Of a stretch of 6,349 bases of DNA, positions 1 through 6,349 are shown in pieces. How positions within the stretch are numbered: the stretch's first letter is position 1; every line of letters begins with the position of its first letter. The notes below the pieces were generated by a model. It did no database searches. It was not told the origin of the DNA and was given only the letters and a program-made list of their open reading frames with translations. The translations under genes and the position numbers were made by a program. The stretch spans positions 1 to 6,349 of the forward strand of contig JAJYWG010000327.1 in NCBI GenBank assembly GCA_021791615.1, given 5' to 3'. This stretch comes from Actinomycetes bacterium. Lineage in GTDB: Bacteria > Actinomycetota > Acidimicrobiia > Acidimicrobiales > RAAP-2.

Positions 1-1488
1 CCTCGCCGATCGCGCCAGGGCGCGAACCTTCGGGTCCGCGCCGCCTGGCACGCGGAACCACGGTACGACGCGGTCGCGACCCTCGACGCGGATCTCGTGC
101 ACGAGCGCCTGGAGGAGCGCCTTCCGGGCCGGCACGGCGCCGTCGGTGAACGCCTGTACGATGTGGCGCCGCATCGCGGCGATCTCCCCGGCGTCGGGTG
201 CTCTCGCCGAGGCGAGCTCCATCGGGGCGACCAGCTCCTCGCGCCGCTCGCGCAGGTCGCGCACCTTGGCGGCGAGCCCTTCGAGTCGCTTGCCGCATTG
301 GGCTTCTGAGAGCGTGCCGGTCTCGAACGCCGACAGGTAGCGCTCGATGGCATCTTCGGCCTTGGTGATCCCGGCGTCGACGACCGCCAGCTCCTGCTCG
401 TGGTTGGCGCGCTCGACGCGTGCCCGGCGCCGGGCGGCCGAGACGGCCTTGTCGAAGAGGTCGGTGCGCTCGTAGGTGCAGACGAGCGCGTCCAAGACGG
501 CCGCGTCCAGGTCCTCGGCCGGCAGGCGTTCGGCGGCGCAGAACTTGGTGCCGTAGCGCTGGCGGGTGAAACAGGTGTAGTAGCGGTACCGGTAGCGGTT
601 GCCCATCGCCGAGGTCCCGACGAAGTGCTTCCCGCAGCGGGCACAGACGACGAGGCCGGCCAGGAGGAACGGCGACGTGGCCGAGGCGCGCTTGGACCAG
701 TCCTCGCCCCGCTCGGAAAGCAGCGCCTGGACTCGGTCGAAGAGCGGCCCGTCGACCAGGTGGGGGTGGGGGCCGTCGTGGAGGGCGTCTCGGAAGAAGA
801 CCTTGCCGACGTAAACCGGGTTGCGCAGGACCGTGAGGACGGCCGTGTGGCTCCAGGGCCGCCCGGCCTTGGTGCGGTGGCCGGCCTCGTTCAGCCACAC
901 CGCCAGCGCCCGGGCGCCCTCCCGGCCGTGGGCGTAGCGGTCGAAGATGACCGGGACGAGCGGCGCCTCGTCGGCCTTGGTCGTGAGATAGCCGGTCGCC
1001 GGGTCCACGTCGTAGCCGAAGGGACGCGACCCGCCGCACCAGCCGCCCCGGGCGGCCTTTCGCTCCATGCCGGCGATCACCCGGTCGACGATGGTGGCCC
1101 GCTCGAACTCGGCGAAGACCCCGAGCATCTGGACCATCATCCGTCCCGCCGCGCTCGTCGTGTCGAACGGCTCGGTGGCTGAGCGGAAGGCGACGCCGGC
1201 CGCGTCCAAGTCCTCGAGCAGCTGGGCGAGGCCGCGCACCGAGCGCGAGAACCGGTCGACCCGGTAGACGAGGAGGAGGTCGAAGCGCCCGGCCCGGGCC
1301 TCGGCCAGGGCACGCTGCAGCTCCGGGCGCTCGGTCGTTGCCCCCGAAGCCTGATCGCTGAAGCGCCGACTGAGGTCCCAGTCAGGCTGGCTTTTCACGT
1401 ACGCAGCCAACCGCTCGGCTTGGGCTTCCAACGAGTAGGGCTGGTGGTCCTCGTCGGTCGAGATCCGGGTGTAGGTGGCGACTCTCAC
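1..1488 (-). CDS. Large serine recombinase / integrase (C-terminus cut by window edge)
   Basis: Site-specific DNA recombinase of the large serine integrase class, which cuts both att sites through a 5'-phosphoserine link and rejoins them. There are 496 codons visible with no stop before the edge; the class is usually about 450-600 aa, so little is missing. Residues 1-145 are the resolvase catalytic domain: YTRIS holds Arg8 and nucleophile Ser10, and VDRFSR holds Asp78, Arg79 and Arg82; the long helix follows at EFER (127-130). Residues 155-235 fit the Recombinase DNA-binding domain (SRPFGYDVD, then RNPVYVGKV). A zinc ribbon has Cys282, Cys285, Cys306 and Cys317, and residues 355-425 are a charged, probable coiled-coil segment. 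The GTG start at 1488 is chosen because the catalytic strand begins immediately and an AGAAGGAG ribosome site lies 7 nt upstream. The family is clear; the att sites are not visible. Confidence 0.96.
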   Translation of the reverse strand, partial: MRVATYTRISTDEDHQPYSLEAQAERLAAYVKSQPDWDLSRRFSDQASGATTERPELQRALAEARAGRFDLLLVYRVDRFSRSVRGLAQLLEDLDAAGVAFRSATEPFDTTSAAGRMMVQMLGVFAEFERATIVDRVIAGMERKAARGGWCGGSRPFGYDVDPATGYLTTKADEAPLVPVIFDRYAHGREGARALAVWLNEAGHRTKAGRPWSHTAVLTVLRNPVYVGKVFFRDALHDGPHPHLVDGPLFDRVQALLSERGEDWSKRASATSPFLLAGLVVCARCGKHFVGTSAMGNRYRYRYYTCFTRQRYGTKFCAAERLPAEDLDAAVLDALVCTYERTDLFDKAVSAARRRARVERANHEQELAVVDAGITKAEDAIERYLSAFETGTLSEAQCGKRLEGLAAKVRDLRERREELVAPMELASARAPDAGEIAAMRRHIVQAFTDGAVPARKALLQALVHEIRVEGRDRVVPWFRVPGGADPKVRALARSAR

Positions 1489-2743: not shown

Positions 2744-3379
2744 TCACAGGTTCGTCGACACCCACCTATCGGCCTCGCCCCTGCGGCGAACTCGCTCAAG
2801 GTGTACCAGGGTGAGGATCGGTGCCACCACCACCACGACCAGCATGAGGATCCCGATGGGAAACGGCAGCACGAACCCCGAGGTCGTGCAGTGAACGACG
2901 ATCCGCTGTCCGGGCGGTGAGCTGCCTGAGCATGCGCGCCCAGAAGCCGGGAGCGAAAGAAGCGTGTAGGCAAGTGCAAGGCCACCGGGGAGCACGAACG
3001 TCCCGAGCAGCTTGTCCCTCCTACGCCAAGTGGACGACGCCCACAAGAGGACTACGCCCACGATCCATCCGATGCCGAAGATGAAGCCGCCCAACAGGAG
3101 GAGCCAGGGCGCGAGCCGGTCGGTCCAGCGGCTCGGGGGGGTCTCGGATTCATAGGCACCGGCTTCCGCGGCGATAGTGCGCGGCTCGCCCACGCGCTCA
3201 AGCAGTGCCTTGATCGCGGCCGGGGACTCGTGGTCGAGGTCCGACCGGCTCTCGGCGATGTGGCGGCTGATCTCGCCGACGATCTGGCGCCGCCGAGCAC
3301 GGGGCAGCGCCCCAAGTGCCCGATCGAGGGTAGCGAGATACTGAGCGATGAGCTGGTCTGCCGGTGCTTTGCGTCTCAC
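2744..3379 (-). CDS. HAAS-domain integral membrane protein (DUF1700-like), PadR partner
   Basis: A 211-aa membrane protein. Residues 8-72 form the cytoplasmic helical HAAS domain (ADQLIAQYLATLDRAL, RQIVGEISRHIAESR, ALLERVGEP), found in proteins encoded next to PadR regulators. Three hydrophobic segments follow: 90-114 (PWLLLLGGFIFGIGWIVGVV), 124-145 (LLGTFVLPGGLALAYTLL) and 169-193 (LPFPIGILMLVVVVVAPILT). The loop between the second and third (146-168) carries two cysteines, Cys150 and Cys164. The C-terminus is Arg-rich. The GTG at 3379 is chosen because it forms a GTGA overlap with the padR stop and places the HAAS domain right at the N-terminus; the frame could extend to 3430 but would then run inside padR. 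Expression should be coupled to padR. The exact function is unknown; a role in sensing or transmitting membrane signals is inferred from the pairing. Confidence 0.85.
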   Translation of the reverse strand: MRRKAPADQLIAQYLATLDRALGALPRARRRQIVGEISRHIAESRSDLDHESPAAIKALLERVGEPRTIAAEAGAYESETPPSRWTDRLAPWLLLLGGFIFGIGWIVGVVLLWASSTWRRRDKLLGTFVLPGGLALAYTLLSLPASGRACSGSSPPGQRIVVHCTTSGFVLPFPIGILMLVVVVVAPILTLVHLERVRRRGEADRWVSTNL

Positions 3380-3720
3380 GGGCGCCCGCTCTTCAGGATG
3401 CGGTCGACAGCGACCCGGAACGCCTTCCACTGGTCGACGAAGGAGGCGAGCGCGATTCGCCCATCCTCGGTAAGCCGGTAGTAGCGGCGCGGGGGGCCTT
3501 CGGTCGACTCACGCCAGGTCGTCTCGACCAAGCCCTGCTGGCGCAGGCGGGTCAAGAGGGGGTAGATGGTTCCTTCGCTGGCCACAAGCCCATTGTCGGT
3601 GAGGGCCCGAGCGAGTTCGAAGCCGTACCGCTCCTGTCCGCGGAGCAGTGAGAGCACGCAGGCCTCGGCCGCGCCTCGTCGCAGCTGCGCCGCCCAGTTG
3701 CCCTGCTCGCCGGGAACCAT
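3376..3720 (-). CDS. PadR family transcriptional regulator
   Basis: A 114-aa winged-helix repressor of the PadR family, which acts as a dimer in the cytoplasm. The sequence has the family order: helix LRRGAAEACVLSLL, ERYGFELARAL, then the recognition segment SEGTIYPLLTRLRQQGLVET, the wing GPPRRYYRLTEDGR, and a C-terminal dimer helix (ALASFVDQWKAFRVAVDRIL). The length fits short PadR proteins. Two ATGs are possible: 3720 (MVPGEQGN) and 3729 (MYYMVPG). I chose 3720 because TACCAT ends 7 nt upstream, the layout expected for a leaderless transcript, and neither has a ribosome site. It overlaps the HAAS gene by GTGA. A 17-bp perfect palindrome covers its promoter and start, so autorepression is likely. 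Confidence 0.92.
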   Translation of the reverse strand: MVPGEQGNWAAQLRRGAAEACVLSLLRGQERYGFELARALTDNGLVASEGTIYPLLTRLRQQGLVETTWRESTEGPPRRYYRLTEDGRIALASFVDQWKAFRVAVDRILKSGRP

Positions 3721-3732
3721 GTAGTACATGGT
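3716..3732. promoter_or_regulatory. Palindromic operator of the padR-HAAS operon
   Basis: The sequence ACCATGTAGTACATGGT is a perfect 8+1+8 inverted repeat. ATGTA/TACAT-type dyads are typical PadR operators, and this one covers the -10 box and the start codon. Binding by the PadR protein would block its own transcription. The palindrome is directly visible; the binding is inferred. Confidence 0.75.
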
Positions 3733-3883: not shown

Positions 3884-4789
3884 TTACGCCCGCTGCCACT
3901 GCTCGGCCGTCCGGCGCCGGTACGCCTGGGCCTCGGCGACCCGTTCTTCGGACTCGGGCGGGATGGGCACGGCGGCCAGCTCAGCGAGCTGTAGCCGCCG
4001 CACGCCCTCGTAGCCGATCGGCGCCCAGATGGCCTCGTGCGGCCGCTGTGTCGGCCCCGGGGCTGCCGTCGCCACCGGGACGGTGGCCTGTGCCAGAACG
4101 TGCCGAGCGCCGGCCTCCCGGCGGGGGTGGCCGAAGCAGAACACAATCCAGTAAGCGAGCCCCGAAGCCACCTGGAGGTCCTCGTAGCTCTTCAGCTTCT
4201 TCGCCAGGCGCTCCAGGGTCTCGGTCGAGCGGTCGTACTCCAGGCAGAAGACGACCCGGTTGCCGGCCTCCTCCCACACCCCGAGCCCGTCGGGCTGGGC
4301 GATCCGGTCGAACTGGCTCGTGCAGTGGCGCTCGGACCACCAGAGCGACAGGTCGCAGTCCTCACGCCTGCGGGACTCGGCCACGAGGGCCGAGAAGAAC
4401 CCGTTCACCCCGACGAGGTGCCGGAGGCGCTGGCTCTTCCCGATGGCGAGAGCCTTGTCGGCCCGCCAGCGGGACTTGTCGGGGTCCTCGCCCCGCTCGG
4501 CGGCCACGACCATGGCGCCCAGCTCGTCGAGCACGTAGTGGTAGGGCAAGCTGGCGTAGCGGTGGTCGAGCGGCTGGAAGCGGTCGAGCAGCCGGAGCTT
4601 GTAGAGCGCGGTCAACCGGTGCTGAGCGGTGTTCGTGTGGTCGAAGTACATCTCGGCCAGCTGGTCCGTAGTGAACACCCGGTGGCGGTAGAGCATGGTC
4701 AAGATGGACCGGTCCCGCTCGGTCAGTCGGTGCGCGACTGCCATCACGAGCTCGTCGCCGGCCCTCGGCCGGAGAGCAGAAACACTCAT
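3884..4789 (-). CDS. Replication-relaxation family protein
   Basis: A 301-aa protein of the replication-relaxation family (Pfam Replic_Relax), typically carried by actinobacterial plasmids and integrative elements. Residues 19-75 form a winged helix: LTERDRSILTMLYRHRVFTT, then DQLAEMYF and TAQHRLTALYKLRLLDRF. A hinge with YHYVLDELGAMVVA (83-96) leads to a conserved core: LVGVNGFFSALVAE (125-138), then PDG (166-168) and FCLEYDRSTETLERLAKKL (181-199). PDG, E184-x-D186 and Lys198/199 resemble a PD-(D/E)xK nuclease arrangement; that reading is mine. The C-terminal region 250-279 (PHEAIWAPIGYEGVRRLQLA onward) is duplicated in the relic at 2595-2736. The ATG at 4789 has a weak AGGGA 8 nt upstream; an in-frame ATG at 4744 is the alternative. 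The family role in DNA processing for replication or transfer is presumed rather than shown. Confidence 0.88.
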   Translation of the reverse strand: MSVSALRPRAGDELVMAVAHRLTERDRSILTMLYRHRVFTTDQLAEMYFDHTNTAQHRLTALYKLRLLDRFQPLDHRYASLPYHYVLDELGAMVVAAERGEDPDKSRWRADKALAIGKSQRLRHLVGVNGFFSALVAESRRREDCDLSLWWSERHCTSQFDRIAQPDGLGVWEEAGNRVVFCLEYDRSTETLERLAKKLKSYEDLQVASGLAYWIVFCFGHPRREAGARHVLAQATVPVATAAPGPTQRPHEAIWAPIGYEGVRRLQLAELAAVPIPPESEERVAEAQAYRRRTAEQWQRA

Positions 4790-5095
4790 ACCAACAATCC
4801 CTAGGAGTCGGGGTGCGCGACTGGCGGGGGTGGAGTAGCGACACGCTGGACCTTCAGCGCCCCCGACCCCCTCCGTTCAGGACTGGCGACCGTACTGGCA
4901 GGGGTGGTGGCGGCCGTGGTGGCGACCCCGTGGAGCCCCCTCACCTGGCGTACCCTTCCCGGCGGACCTTCGCGTGCGCTGCGGCCAAGCTGATGGCCGG
5001 GCGCATTGTGGGAGGCCGGGTGCGCCACGCCCGCTACCAGCGCCTTCCTCACGTCGGGCCTTCCAGGGCGCGAACTTGCATGGCACGCGAGCACT
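4790..5095. other. Divergent intergenic region without an intact gene
   Basis: It separates the minus-strand replication-relaxation gene from the plus-strand TA module. Bases 4904-4927 are a 12-bp tandem repeat (GTGGTGGCGGCC, then GTGGTGGCGACC). A short inverted repeat CGCTG/CAGCG lies at 4844-4859. The rightmost part is the relic repeat described at 4941-5074. Frames crossing the region have no recognisable domains. Confidence 0.5.
4941..5074. repeat. TA-leader repeat, copy 1 (possible minus-strand gene relic)
   Basis: It matches 5736-5892 in the same orientation. Bases 4941-5001 and 5736-5796 agree at 43 of 61 positions without gaps, and 5002-5026 against 5820-5844 at 23 of 25; copy 1 lacks a 23-nt segment between these blocks. 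CCTTCCA and GGCGCGAA near the right end also match. On the minus strand the left block reads PAISLAAAHAKVRREGYAR and stops; the right block reads LVAGVAHPASHNA in another frame, the shift being explained by the 23-nt deletion. The antitoxin start lies 51 nt beyond its right end. Confidence 0.75.
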
Positions 5096-5127
5096 GATGT
5101 CACGATGTCGCGATACCATGAGTGCAT
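5096..5127 (+). promoter_or_regulatory. Promoter/operator of the RHH-Doc module with 8-bp tandem repeats
   Basis: Four consecutive 8-mers begin with GA: GATGTCAC, GATGTCGC, GATACCAT, GAGTGCAT; the first two differ at one base. Tandem half-sites at short regular spacing are what ribbon-helix-helix antitoxins bind cooperatively. TACCAT (5114-5119) fits a -10 box and ends 6 nt before the ATG at 5126, predicting a leaderless transcript. No clear -35 box is seen. Confidence 0.5.
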
Positions 5128-5335
5128 GGCAAAGCAGACCACCGTCCGGCTTCCAGACGACCTCGCCGACGAGGCCGAAGCGGTCGCGCGAGTGCGCGGC
5201 ACCAGCGTGAACGCCTTGATCGTCGACTCACTGAGCGCCGAGGTGACGCGCGTCCGCTCGGACAAGGACTTCGTCGCCCGAGCCCGCAAGCTTCTCGAGC
5301 GGGACAAGGAGCTCCTCGACCGCCTCGCCAAGTGA
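5126..5335 (+). CDS. Ribbon-helix-helix (Arc/CopG-like) antitoxin
   Basis: A 69-aa antitoxin and likely autorepressor. The N-terminal strand KQTTVRLPDDL is the DNA-contacting beta strand of RHH proteins, followed by helix A (ADEAEAVARVRG) and helix B (SVNALIVDSLSAEV). The tail from residue 45 (DKDFVARARKLLERDKELLD) is a charged helix, the usual toxin-binding part. The ATG at 5126 is chosen because TACCAT lies 6 nt before it and the RHH strand begins within four residues; the frame is open further upstream but runs into the repeat region. The stop overlaps the toxin start in a GTGA, giving coupled translation. The family is clear; its toxin is assigned from adjacency. Confidence 0.9.
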   Translation: MAKQTTVRLPDDLADEAEAVARVRGTSVNALIVDSLSAEVTRVRSDKDFVARARKLLERDKELLDRLAK

Positions 5336-5730
5336 TCCGCTACATCAGTCTGGCGGAGTATGTCTGGCTCGCCGAGCAGGTCACCGGGATCGACGCCGCG
5401 GTCCTCGCCAAGGCCGCGCGCATCGACTTGGCCGACTCGGCACTGCACGCGCCCTCTGCCAGCTTCGGCGGTGAGGAGTTCTACCCTGACATCATCGACA
5501 AGGCGGCTGTGCTGACGTGTCATCTTGCGTGGAACCACCCACTCCCAGACGGGAACAAGCGCGCTGCATGGGCAGCGCTCGTTCTCTTCCTCGACCTGAA
5601 CGGCGTGATCTGGTCCCCAGACCCTCCCGACGTCGACGAAGCCGAGCACGCAATGTTGGCAGTGGCTGCGCATGACGTGGAAGAGCCGTGGTTCGCCGAG
5701 TGGCTCCGCAGCCACGTGCAGCTGCCCTGA
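5332..5730 (+). CDS. doc: Doc-type Fic-domain toxin
   Basis: A 132-aa Fic-fold toxin of the Doc subgroup. The key motif is HPLPDGNKR at residues 69-77, with catalytic His69 and Lys76 where classical AMP-transferring Fic enzymes have Gly. That Lys marks Doc, whose P1-phage member is a kinase that phosphorylates elongation factor Tu and stops translation. The flanks also fit: FGGEEFYPDIIDKAAVL (45-61) before the motif and AAWAALVLFLDLNG after it. The length matches P1 Doc (126 aa). It starts at GTG 5332 inside the antitoxin stop (GTGA). No inhibitory glutamate helix is seen, so inhibition must come from the antitoxin. The partner is an RHH protein rather than the classical Phd. Substrate and activity are inferred from the motif. 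Confidence 0.92.
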   Translation: MIRYISLAEYVWLAEQVTGIDAAVLAKAARIDLADSALHAPSASFGGEEFYPDIIDKAAVLTCHLAWNHPLPDGNKRAAWAALVLFLDLNGVIWSPDPPDVDEAEHAMLAVAAHDVEEPWFAEWLRSHVQLP

Positions 5731-5735
5731 ATGAC

Positions 5736-5892
5736 TCACCGCCGGTACCCCTCACGGCGGATCTTGGTGTGCCGGGCCGCCAGTCTGATTGCTGGTCCTT
5801 CGACCGGCGGCTCGAGGTTCGCATTCTGGGAGGCCGGGGGCGCCGACCCGACGACCAGCCACTTCGCTGGGGACTCCCTTCCACGGCGCGAA
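5736..5892. repeat. TA-leader repeat, copy 2 (possible minus-strand gene relic)
   Basis: This is the second and longer copy of the repeat at 4941-5074, starting 6 nt after the toxin stop and ending 74 nt before hicA. On the minus strand it is one open frame reading LVVGSAPPASQNANLEPPVE, then GPAIRLAARHTKIRREGYRR and a stop at the same place as in copy 1. Over the last 19 codons 14 residues are identical to copy 1, and 8 of the 13 changed codons are synonymous, which suggests past selection on a minus-strand protein. I do not recognise that protein. Confidence 0.75.
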
Positions 5893-5939
5893 ATCCGAGA
5901 GCGGCGGTAGCGCAGCGAGTGCGACGGCTCGAGGAGATC

Positions 5940-5966
5940 GTCACATCGATCCCGTACCTTGAACTC
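5940..5966 (+). promoter_or_regulatory. Promoter of hicAB
   Basis: GTCAC (5940-5944), 10 nt, TACCTT (5955-5960), 6 nt and then the GTG of hicA. TACCTT fits a -10 box placed for a leaderless transcript. The same elements at identical spacing precede the RHH antitoxin (GTCAC 5099-5103, TACCAT 5114-5119, ATG 5126). No ribosome site is present. Confidence 0.5.
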
Positions 5967-6170
5967 GTGAAGGTGCGAGACGTCATCCGTACTCTGGAGC
6001 GAGACGGCTGGCGCCTCGACCGGCAGGTCGGCTCTCACCGTCAGTTCCGCCATCCCGACCGGCCCGGAACGGTGACGGTGGCAGGCAAGCCGAGTGACGA
6101 GGTGCCGAAGGGTACGCTTGGATCGATCTGGCGGCAGGCCGGCAGGTCGGGAAGGCAGAGTGGTGACTGA
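5967..6170 (+). CDS. hicA: HicA mRNA interferase toxin
   Basis: A 67-aa toxin of the HicA family, with a small dsRBD-like fold that cleaves mRNA independently of translation. It opens with KVRDVIRTLERDGWRLDRQ, has the active-site GSHRQFRHP with His24 at the usual position, and continues with the TVTVAGKPSDEVPKGTLGSI strand-turn-helix typical of the family. The GTG at 5967 is chosen because the family begins two residues before this helix and a -10-like TACCTT lies 6 nt upstream; the frame is open leftward to 5688 but that part overlaps the Doc gene and repeat. The C-terminal tail (RSGRQSGD) is variable. Toxin-first order with hicB overlapping by 8 nt is the classical hicAB layout. Confidence 0.94.
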   Translation: MKVRDVIRTLERDGWRLDRQVGSHRQFRHPDRPGTVTVAGKPSDEVPKGTLGSIWRQAGRSGRQSGD

Positions 6171-6349
6171 GTACGTCGTCGTGATCGAGCAGGAAGGCGA
6201 CGCCTGGGGGGCGTACGTGCCGGACCTTCCTGGCTGCGTGGCGGCTGGAAGCTCCCGCGTCGAGGTCGAAGAGCTCATCGCCGAAGCGATCCCTCTGCAT
6301 ATCCAATCGTTGCGCGAGCACGGCGAGCAGGTTCCCCCTCCGACGGCGA
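6163..6349 (+). CDS. hicB: HicB antitoxin (N-terminal part; right edge cuts it)
   Basis: The first 62 residues of a HicB-type antitoxin, which covers the HicA active site and usually represses the operon. The partial RNase H-like fold is evident: TEYVVVIEQEGDAWGAYVPD, then LPGCVAAGSSRVEVEELIAE and AIPLHIQSLREHGEQVPPP, matching the family pattern of a strand, W-x-A-x-VPDLPGC and an amphipathic helix. The GTG at 6163 overlaps the hicA stop by 8 nt (GTGACTGA), so translation is coupled. The C-terminal DNA-binding domain, if there is one, lies outside the window, so its type cannot be told. Confidence 0.92.
   Translation, partial: MTEYVVVIEQEGDAWGAYVPDLPGCVAAGSSRVEVEELIAEAIPLHIQSLREHGEQVPPPTA

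Follow-up and report, generated by a model that had tools for sequence, protein, structure and literature searches.

Toxin–antitoxin cassettes probably stacked at tRNA-Arg genes by serine integrases with the attachment site in their own gene

A stretch of 6,349 nucleotides (nt) from an Acidimicrobiales genome (GCA_021791615.1, contig JAJYWG010000327.1; hereafter the window) carries two neighbouring toxin–antitoxin (TA) modules, ribbon–helix–helix (RHH)-Doc and HicAB, each preceded by a related repeat. What is this repeat, and why does it stand in front of both modules? The original prediction offered a conserved leader and promoter cassette or, alternatively, an insertion target used repeatedly, either of which would build TA arrays without an integron. 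Comparing the repeat with related loci, we propose, with a probability of just under 0.8, that it is the joint between tandem insertions at the 3′ end of a tRNA-Arg gene. Its outer arm (A) would be the tail of a large serine recombinase (LSR) gene, with the element's attachment site (attP) lying inside that gene. The window then runs from the last 7 nt of tRNA-Arg(TCT) through an LSR element of ~5 kb and an RHH-Doc cassette to HicAB. Overall, the earlier interpretation of the repeat is partly supported: the repeat does mark a repeatedly used insertion point, and the leader cassette gives way to an attachment site joined, on the opposite strand, to a 3′ end split off from a serine recombinase gene.

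The repeat pair

The two repeats lie where they had been predicted (4941-5074 and 5736-5892) and align better than shuffled sequence, with a local score of 54 against a mean of 18.4 and a maximum of 34 in 1000 dinucleotide-shuffled pairs. Our identities agree with those first reported for the two blocks: the first matches at 74.5% across 51 nt and the second at 92% across 25 nt. The second block together with the stretch that follows it is 74% identical across 73 nt. By Pfam, the modules are indeed unrelated, with an RHH-type antitoxin and a Fic/Doc toxin in one and HicA and HicB in the other. Among the window's own genome and its relatives, the first repeat has a match in 7 of 61 genomes and the second in 11 of 61. 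Several copies are paired, roughly 500-800 bases apart, and the repeat comprises two parts that are also found separately from each other.

Arm A as the severed tail of a recombinase gene

We collected 71 loci (numbered with the prefix L) and dropped 13 duplicates; 57 of the remaining 58 (439 kb), mostly from actinobacterial metagenome-assembled genomes (MAGs), hold 77 copies of A. These outer ~105 nt encode, on the opposite strand, a conserved peptide of ~36 residues followed by a stop codon. A scan of one genome per species returned 33 loci, 30 with actinobacterial titles and three titled Candidatus Dormibacteraeota. In two of them (L057 and L061) the peptide is the C terminus of an LSR, 93% identical to that of the window (LSR1), in a frame unbroken across the joint. 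The LSR frame is likewise continuous with the tail in protein P0001, and proteins P0098 and P0049 end in similar tails. The same tail closes a second LSR (LSR2, L113:1936-4194) that is ~25-27% identical to LSR1; both unite Resolvase, Recombinase and zinc-ribbon domains in one protein. The attachment core is located inside the integrase gene, as the LSR frame crosses it in L057, L061, P0001 and LSR2 of L113.

These unsplit genes were the sole route to identifying the tail: neither one tail peptide searched against plasmids (tblastn) nor two searched against Pfam gave a match. Within the window's order, 28 of the 397 genomes drawn have a tail match. Phage and plasmid records matching LSR1 (E up to 1e-30) numbered 25 and 8, all below 60% identity, so LSR1 has no close named relative there. 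We therefore read A as the last ~36 codons of an LSR gene, apparently left on the opposite strand at the right end of each insertion because attP lies inside the LSR's own gene.

Two further loci carry related sequence. In L044 (~383-500), either a deletion or a misassembly has joined an A tail, in frame, to the central part of an LSR gene. To the right of A in L029 (8286 onward), an opposite-strand frame looks by eye like a decayed recombinase end; a search with LSR2 gave no match.

Many LSR genes end in tRNA genes, nearly all at one spacing

In 298 genomes of the window's order we found 25 related LSR loci in 20 genomes. At 15 of these the end of the gene overlaps or abuts a tRNA gene on the opposite strand (Arg 7, Val 3, Ala 2, Glu 2, Leu 1). 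Two more end in tRNA-like sequence that was not called as a tRNA (L133, L143), two run in frame into an A tail (L129, L149), two stop at a contig end (L138, L152) and four have none of these endings (L131, L135, L145, L147). When the best 120 of 1805 homologous proteins were sorted by a crude pattern, 91 carried an antisense T-arm signature close to their end, 3 carried the tail and the other 26 had neither feature. That LSR frames end in antisense tRNA suggests that integration at the tRNA end swaps the last ~36 codons for antisense tRNA, while the severed tail stays at the element's far end. At LSR-tRNA joints in L130-L153, the last four bases of the element arm beside the centre seem by eye to match the end of the target tRNA; such a match would keep the tRNA gene whole.

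The geometry of these joints is regular. At 14 of the 15 LSR-tRNA junctions, the motif NGTTCG in the last LSR codons and the T-arm motif span exactly 45 nt between outer edges; the fifteenth (L142) is without an exact motif. As a control, the spacing of 45 was found at none of eight tRNAs of argS-like loci, two of which are occupied (L154, and L158 with an LSR2 end). Unsplit sites have a motif spacing of 50 (L057, L114, L113), and one partly deleted element has 45 (L126). According to PMC3783163, the motif contacted by the zinc domain of serine integrases lies 5 bp nearer the centre in the bacterial attachment site (attB) than in attP. That offset, ~5 bp per half, is seen between the 45-nt tRNA junctions and the 50-51-nt unsplit sites, and so the T-arm sits where the attB motif would be expected. 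We infer that the zinc domain reads the T-arm motif.

Toxin–antitoxin pairs between copies of A

An association of the repeat with TA genes had been predicted, and it is present. Of the 77 A copies, 30 have a same-strand TA gene directly in front, 15 a Replic_Relax gene, 3 a contig end and 29 other neighbours. Directly behind, the counts are 18 TA genes, 6 LSR genes, 3 contig ends and 50 others, three of which are LSR2 ends (L030, L031, L035). For the 48 copies scoring at least 60, the front neighbours are TA genes in 25, Replic_Relax in 12, a contig end in 1 and others in 10. All but one of 79 TA matches fall within 1.5 kb of an A copy, in a comparison whose TA queries were themselves drawn from such loci, and a TA match typically ends 9 nt before A. 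Besides the Fic/Doc-RHH and HicA/HicB families of the window, the adjacent families elsewhere include VapB/PIN, MNT/HepT, DUF433/DUF5615 and RHH/PemK, which we take to be TA pairs.

Delimited intervals, listed by hand, were bounded on the left by a tRNA gene or A and on the right by A, were no longer than 3.2 kb and held no complete LSR gene. TA-type genes or their remnants occur in 21 of the 31, and TA-only units are bounded either by two A copies or by a tRNA gene and A. RHH-Doc intervals were found in L028, L038, L039, L109 and L112 (partial), with a Doc remnant alone in one L043 interval. HicBA, HicAB or HicB occupy intervals in L029, L030, L033, L036, L041, L043, L049, L110, L117 and L124, and VapBC those in L038 and L124. 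L040 has intervals with DUF433/DUF5615 and MNT/HEPN, and an L126 interval at tRNA-Glu holds RHH/MazF. No LSR lies inside the TA cassettes of L028, L029, L038, L039, L040 and others. In L112 and L065 the intervals depend on A copies that matched only in part.

Signs of movement and selection

One HicBA unit occupies three different tRNA-Arg genes. It lies behind tRNA-Arg(CCG) in the window's genome (L029, beside an argS-like gene by eye), behind tRNA-Arg(CCT) in L036 and L033 (beside an adenosylhomocysteinase-like gene by eye) and behind tRNA-Arg(TCT) in L117 (beside tRNA-His and tRNA-Lys). The alignments, at 81-91% identity, extend from the tRNA up to the A core and end there; L033 and L036 additionally match in a stretch of the left flank, as two copies of one chromosomal site should. 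Conversely, the contents of the TCT site beside tRNA-His differ among L028, L037, L049 and L117, of which three have a called tRNA-Lys. The partly deleted LSR elements of L108, L110 and L126 look like intermediates.

The tails of TA cassettes retain a coding pattern. Beyond the attachment arm, 21 such tails have a ratio of non-synonymous to synonymous differences (pN/pS) of 0.40 (bootstrap 0.31-0.49). This figure favours coding tails, since those with an early stop or lost frame were excluded beforehand, and the interval is too narrow, since the sequences are related and hence not independent of one another. Read in the two remaining frames of that strand, those 21 tails give 1.4 and 2.2; the full set of 52 tails gives 0.49. 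Of 59 usable tails, 53 keep the frame. Either working LSR genes gave rise to the tails recently, or the tails are still used when an LSR sits behind them.

A route by which the array may have formed

Most likely, the array was built by serine integrases that target tRNA genes and whose own gene end is split, and the best reading of the loci compared is that TA-only cassettes without a recombinase accreted in tandem through such LSRs. The LSR would recombine attP with the tRNA end, its zinc-ribbon domain presumably recognizing the T-arm motif, and each insertion would acquire a left arm (B) and a right arm A. New elements may enter beside the tRNA gene and displace older ones outward. Loss of the LSR interior could then leave compact cassettes that retain the ends and a TA pair, and these may have moved in trans or together with their neighbours. 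The TA pairs are probably kept in arrays because they resist loss.

A broader proposal is possible and more tentative. The loci may represent a bacterial cassette system independent of integrons, in which an LSR with attP in its own gene uses the universal tRNA T-arm as half of its target, TA-only cassettes are stacked at tRNA genes, and a built-in switch makes the form of the integrase depend on where in the array it lies. Right beside the tRNA gene, an LSR would carry the antisense-tRNA end; one behind a cassette would regain its normal C terminus from its neighbour, because the right arm of the cassette encodes the integrase tail.

Alternative explanations

Several observations weigh against tandem accretion by LSRs. 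Twenty-nine of the 77 A copies have other neighbours in front, many TA genes in the arrays are broken and 10 of the 31 delimited intervals hold no recognised TA gene. These ten comprise LSR or element remnants (L037, L108, L110), a TPR protein (L051), a RibD-like protein (L065), unassigned proteins (L041, L040) and, in L069, AAA_14/DUF4143, WD40 and an unassigned protein. The geometry also has exceptions: partly deleted L108 has a spacing of 50, and L110 has 51 at its A joint and no value at the tRNA. The attP/attB offset is absent from five of the six LSR2 ends at a joint (L030, L031, L035, L037, L113, L158), where the motif stands at the expected 25 only in L113, so most LSR2 ends look diverged or decayed. 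It is absent, too, from the window-type cassettes, whose left-arm motif lies 53-56 nt from the centre, not 25, at at least 12 junctions. The first arm of the window, A1, is degenerate, being 23 nt shorter and without the outer motif. Finally, an empty-site test at the tRNA-Arg(CCG) locus beside an argS-like gene (by eye) gave no clean empty/occupied pair, because the right flank of the site in the window's genome aligned to no other locus. Of the 11 loci in this test, eight had a called tRNA: the occupied site of the window's genome, L158 with an LSR2 end running into the tRNA, and six without A in the stretch examined.

The long left arms, with their motif at 53-56 nt, share similar inner sequence in L028, L029, L030, L036, L044, L066, L102, L109, L110, L115, L116 and L117. 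In L069, titled as a Dactylosporangium MAG, distant tail copies flank larger cargo, namely the AAA_14/DUF4143, WD40 and unassigned proteins.

The strongest alternative is that the arrays are fossils: old LSR insertions at tRNA-Arg whose TA pairs are leftover cargo that no longer moved, or never moved, as units. The off-spacing long arms, degenerate A1, broken TA genes, LSR remnants (for example in L108, L110, L126 and L037) and missing empty site would all fit. We nevertheless consider it unlikely, given the single HicBA unit at three different tRNA-Arg genes with alignments ending at the A core, the coding pattern retained by cassette tails, and a cassette form that is very regular down to the distance between TA match and A.

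Tyrosine integrases may instead have made the insertions, with the LSR gene as a mere passenger. tRNA ends are the usual target of these enzymes, according to PMC4383910, and tyrosine-recombinase-like genes were found, as weak matches, in the 14 genomes searched. An attachment core within the frame of two LSRs as divergent as LSR1 and LSR2, and spacings of 45 and 50, make this very unlikely, and a scan that covered eight window proteins and no other element found no tyrosine integrase.

The idea of a conserved leader or regulatory region for TA genes started from a layout common to both window modules, GTCAC-N10-TACC[A/T]T-N6-start. We confirmed its two occurrences in the window, at 5099 and 5940, and found GTCAC-N10-TACC[A/T]T nowhere on the plus strand of 300 window shuffles. 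As a trait of the family, the layout did not hold up. Across the 439 kb of related loci (one strand), it occurs only at the window's two promoters and in L044, where the RHH promoter has a near-identical counterpart. Since other cassettes lack the layout, we abandoned the promoter idea. A also closes cassettes and LSR elements and precedes LSR genes, its coding pattern lies on the opposite strand and the LSR frame crosses it, leaving a regulatory role highly improbable.

A conventional integron with attC sites, suggested by tandem one-direction cassettes of 0.5-0.8 kb with TA pairs, is scarcely credible: as the original prediction supposed, no integron integrase exceeded the family cut-off (TIGR02249) in the 14 genomes searched, although 14 control genomes likewise yielded none above it. 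The repeat, moreover, encodes protein on one of its strands and goes with tRNA genes, and Rfam, scanned at E up to 1 and with no attC model used, matched nothing in the window. Genomes G003 and G385 have 50 and 56 weak matches to the integron-integrase model, compared with 1-11 in the other twelve, which points to many tyrosine recombinases.

Features of the window

Coordinates are collected in Table 1. The LSR1 frame continues beyond the window edge, reading antisense through tRNA-Arg(TCT), and by motif spacing the left attachment site at the window start spans 45 nt including the tRNA T-arm. Doc, HicA and HicB score above their Pfam cut-offs and the RHH protein scores below (best PSK_trans_fac, E 0.0005); full-length relatives of the latter, 84-100% identical, precede Doc at other A copies. 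The window and the compared contig copy differ at six positions (1-3, 4951, 5608 and 5648). By eye, 2640-2730 resembles 4000-4120, a likeness that would fit partial duplication of the Replic_Relax gene's end within the LSR element.

Table 1. Features of the window, with the basis of each assignment
Feature	Position	Strand	Basis or remark
tRNA-Arg(TCT), final 7 nt	1..7	+	Remainder outside window; ARAGORN on window's contig: L028 6393-6468 (-)
Putative left attachment site, element half, within last codons of LSR gene	4..28	-	Motif spacing; L130 same place
LSR1, large serine recombinase	1..1488	-	Pfam Resolvase, Recombinase, Zn_ribbon_recom; start codon inferred
HAAS-domain protein, LSR element cargo	2744..3430	-	Pfam PF22564
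PadR-like regulator, LSR element cargo	3376..3723	-	Pfam PF03551
Replication-relaxation (Replic_Relax) protein, rightmost gene of LSR element	3884..4789	-	Pfam PF13814
Arm A1, putative severed LSR tail, right end of LSR element	4941..5022	-	Degenerate; last base is the author-placed site centre
Left arm B1 of RHH-Doc cassette	5023..5076	.	Motif 54 nt from centre (counted by hand)
Promoter-like layout upstream of RHH gene	5099..5128	+	Pattern search
RHH-type antitoxin	5126..5335	+	Pfam matches weak, below cut-off
Doc toxin (Fic/DOC family)	5332..5730	+	Pfam PF02661
Arm A2 at right end of RHH-Doc cassette; putative severed LSR tail, stop present and outer motif intact	5736..5840	-	
Left arm B2 of HicAB cassette	5841..5894	.	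Motif 54 nt from centre
Promoter-like layout upstream of hicA	5940..5969	+	Pattern search
HicA toxin	5967..6170	+	Pfam PF07927
HicB antitoxin, continues past window end	6160..6349	+	Pfam PF15919

Comparison with known systems

The nearest known systems are the cis-mobilizable elements (CIMEs) with tandem accretion (PMC5704250) and the ssrA islands of Dehalococcoides with their serine recombinase DsiB, 15 of which lack an integration module (PMC3146451). Like the cassettes, CIMEs have no integration genes of their own, are held between attachment sites and are stacked beside relatives. The units described here, in contrast, are often only 0.5-0.8 kb, consist of a TA pair alone and have a site that bears the tail of a serine-integrase gene. 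CIMEs are flanked by still-working attachment sites, whereas the sites here are known from sequence and the left-arm spacing is off in window-type cassettes. The ssrA islands share a serine recombinase, insertion in the 3′ part of an RNA gene (the T-loop of transfer-messenger RNA (tmRNA)) and a tandem arrangement. They differ in their tmRNA target, in being larger, in carrying dehalogenase and other genes, and in having a CcrB-like enzyme that has a partner; the available text describes no attachment site lying within the integrase gene.

Serine recombinases that integrate at tRNA genes are also known from the actinobacterial actinomycete integrative and conjugative elements (AICEs; PMC3218068), which are conjugative, and from phage phiRSM (PMC4471427), whose attP lies between two genes; the available parts of both sources describe no TA-only cassettes. 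The suicidal (SSV-type) integrases of archaea (PMC8371274) likewise have the site inside the integrase gene, which integration at a tRNA gene splits. They are tyrosine recombinases in which the split separates the catalytic part, whereas here ~36 C-terminal residues of a serine recombinase would be exchanged, and both the serine recombinase domains and the bacterial MAGs in which the named loci lie set our loci apart from the archaeal type. The TA cassette arrays of integrons are similarly compact, tandem and same-direction behind one entry point; here that entry point is the end of a tRNA gene, and no integron integrase passed the cut-off in the 14 genomes searched.

Accretion is already known, as are serine integrases at tRNA and tmRNA genes. 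Among the titles and abstracts of open-licence papers that our searches listed, none describes a serine integrase stacking TA-only cassettes at tRNA genes. Integration at tRNA genes by serine recombinases was called rare in 2011 (PMC3218068) and given as not known in 2014 (PMC4383910); the loci compared here would add many cases. They would also point to a way, outside integrons, for TA pairs to gather in arrays and spread. Target recognition can be tested directly through the T-arm and the 5 bp by which it is offset from the attP motif; both also suggest how a single enzyme family can use Arg, Ala, Glu, Val and Leu tRNA genes. Integrases with the site in their own gene were called exclusively archaeal in a 2021 review of tyrosine recombinases (PMC8371274), and the LSRs described here would be their bacterial, serine-type counterpart.

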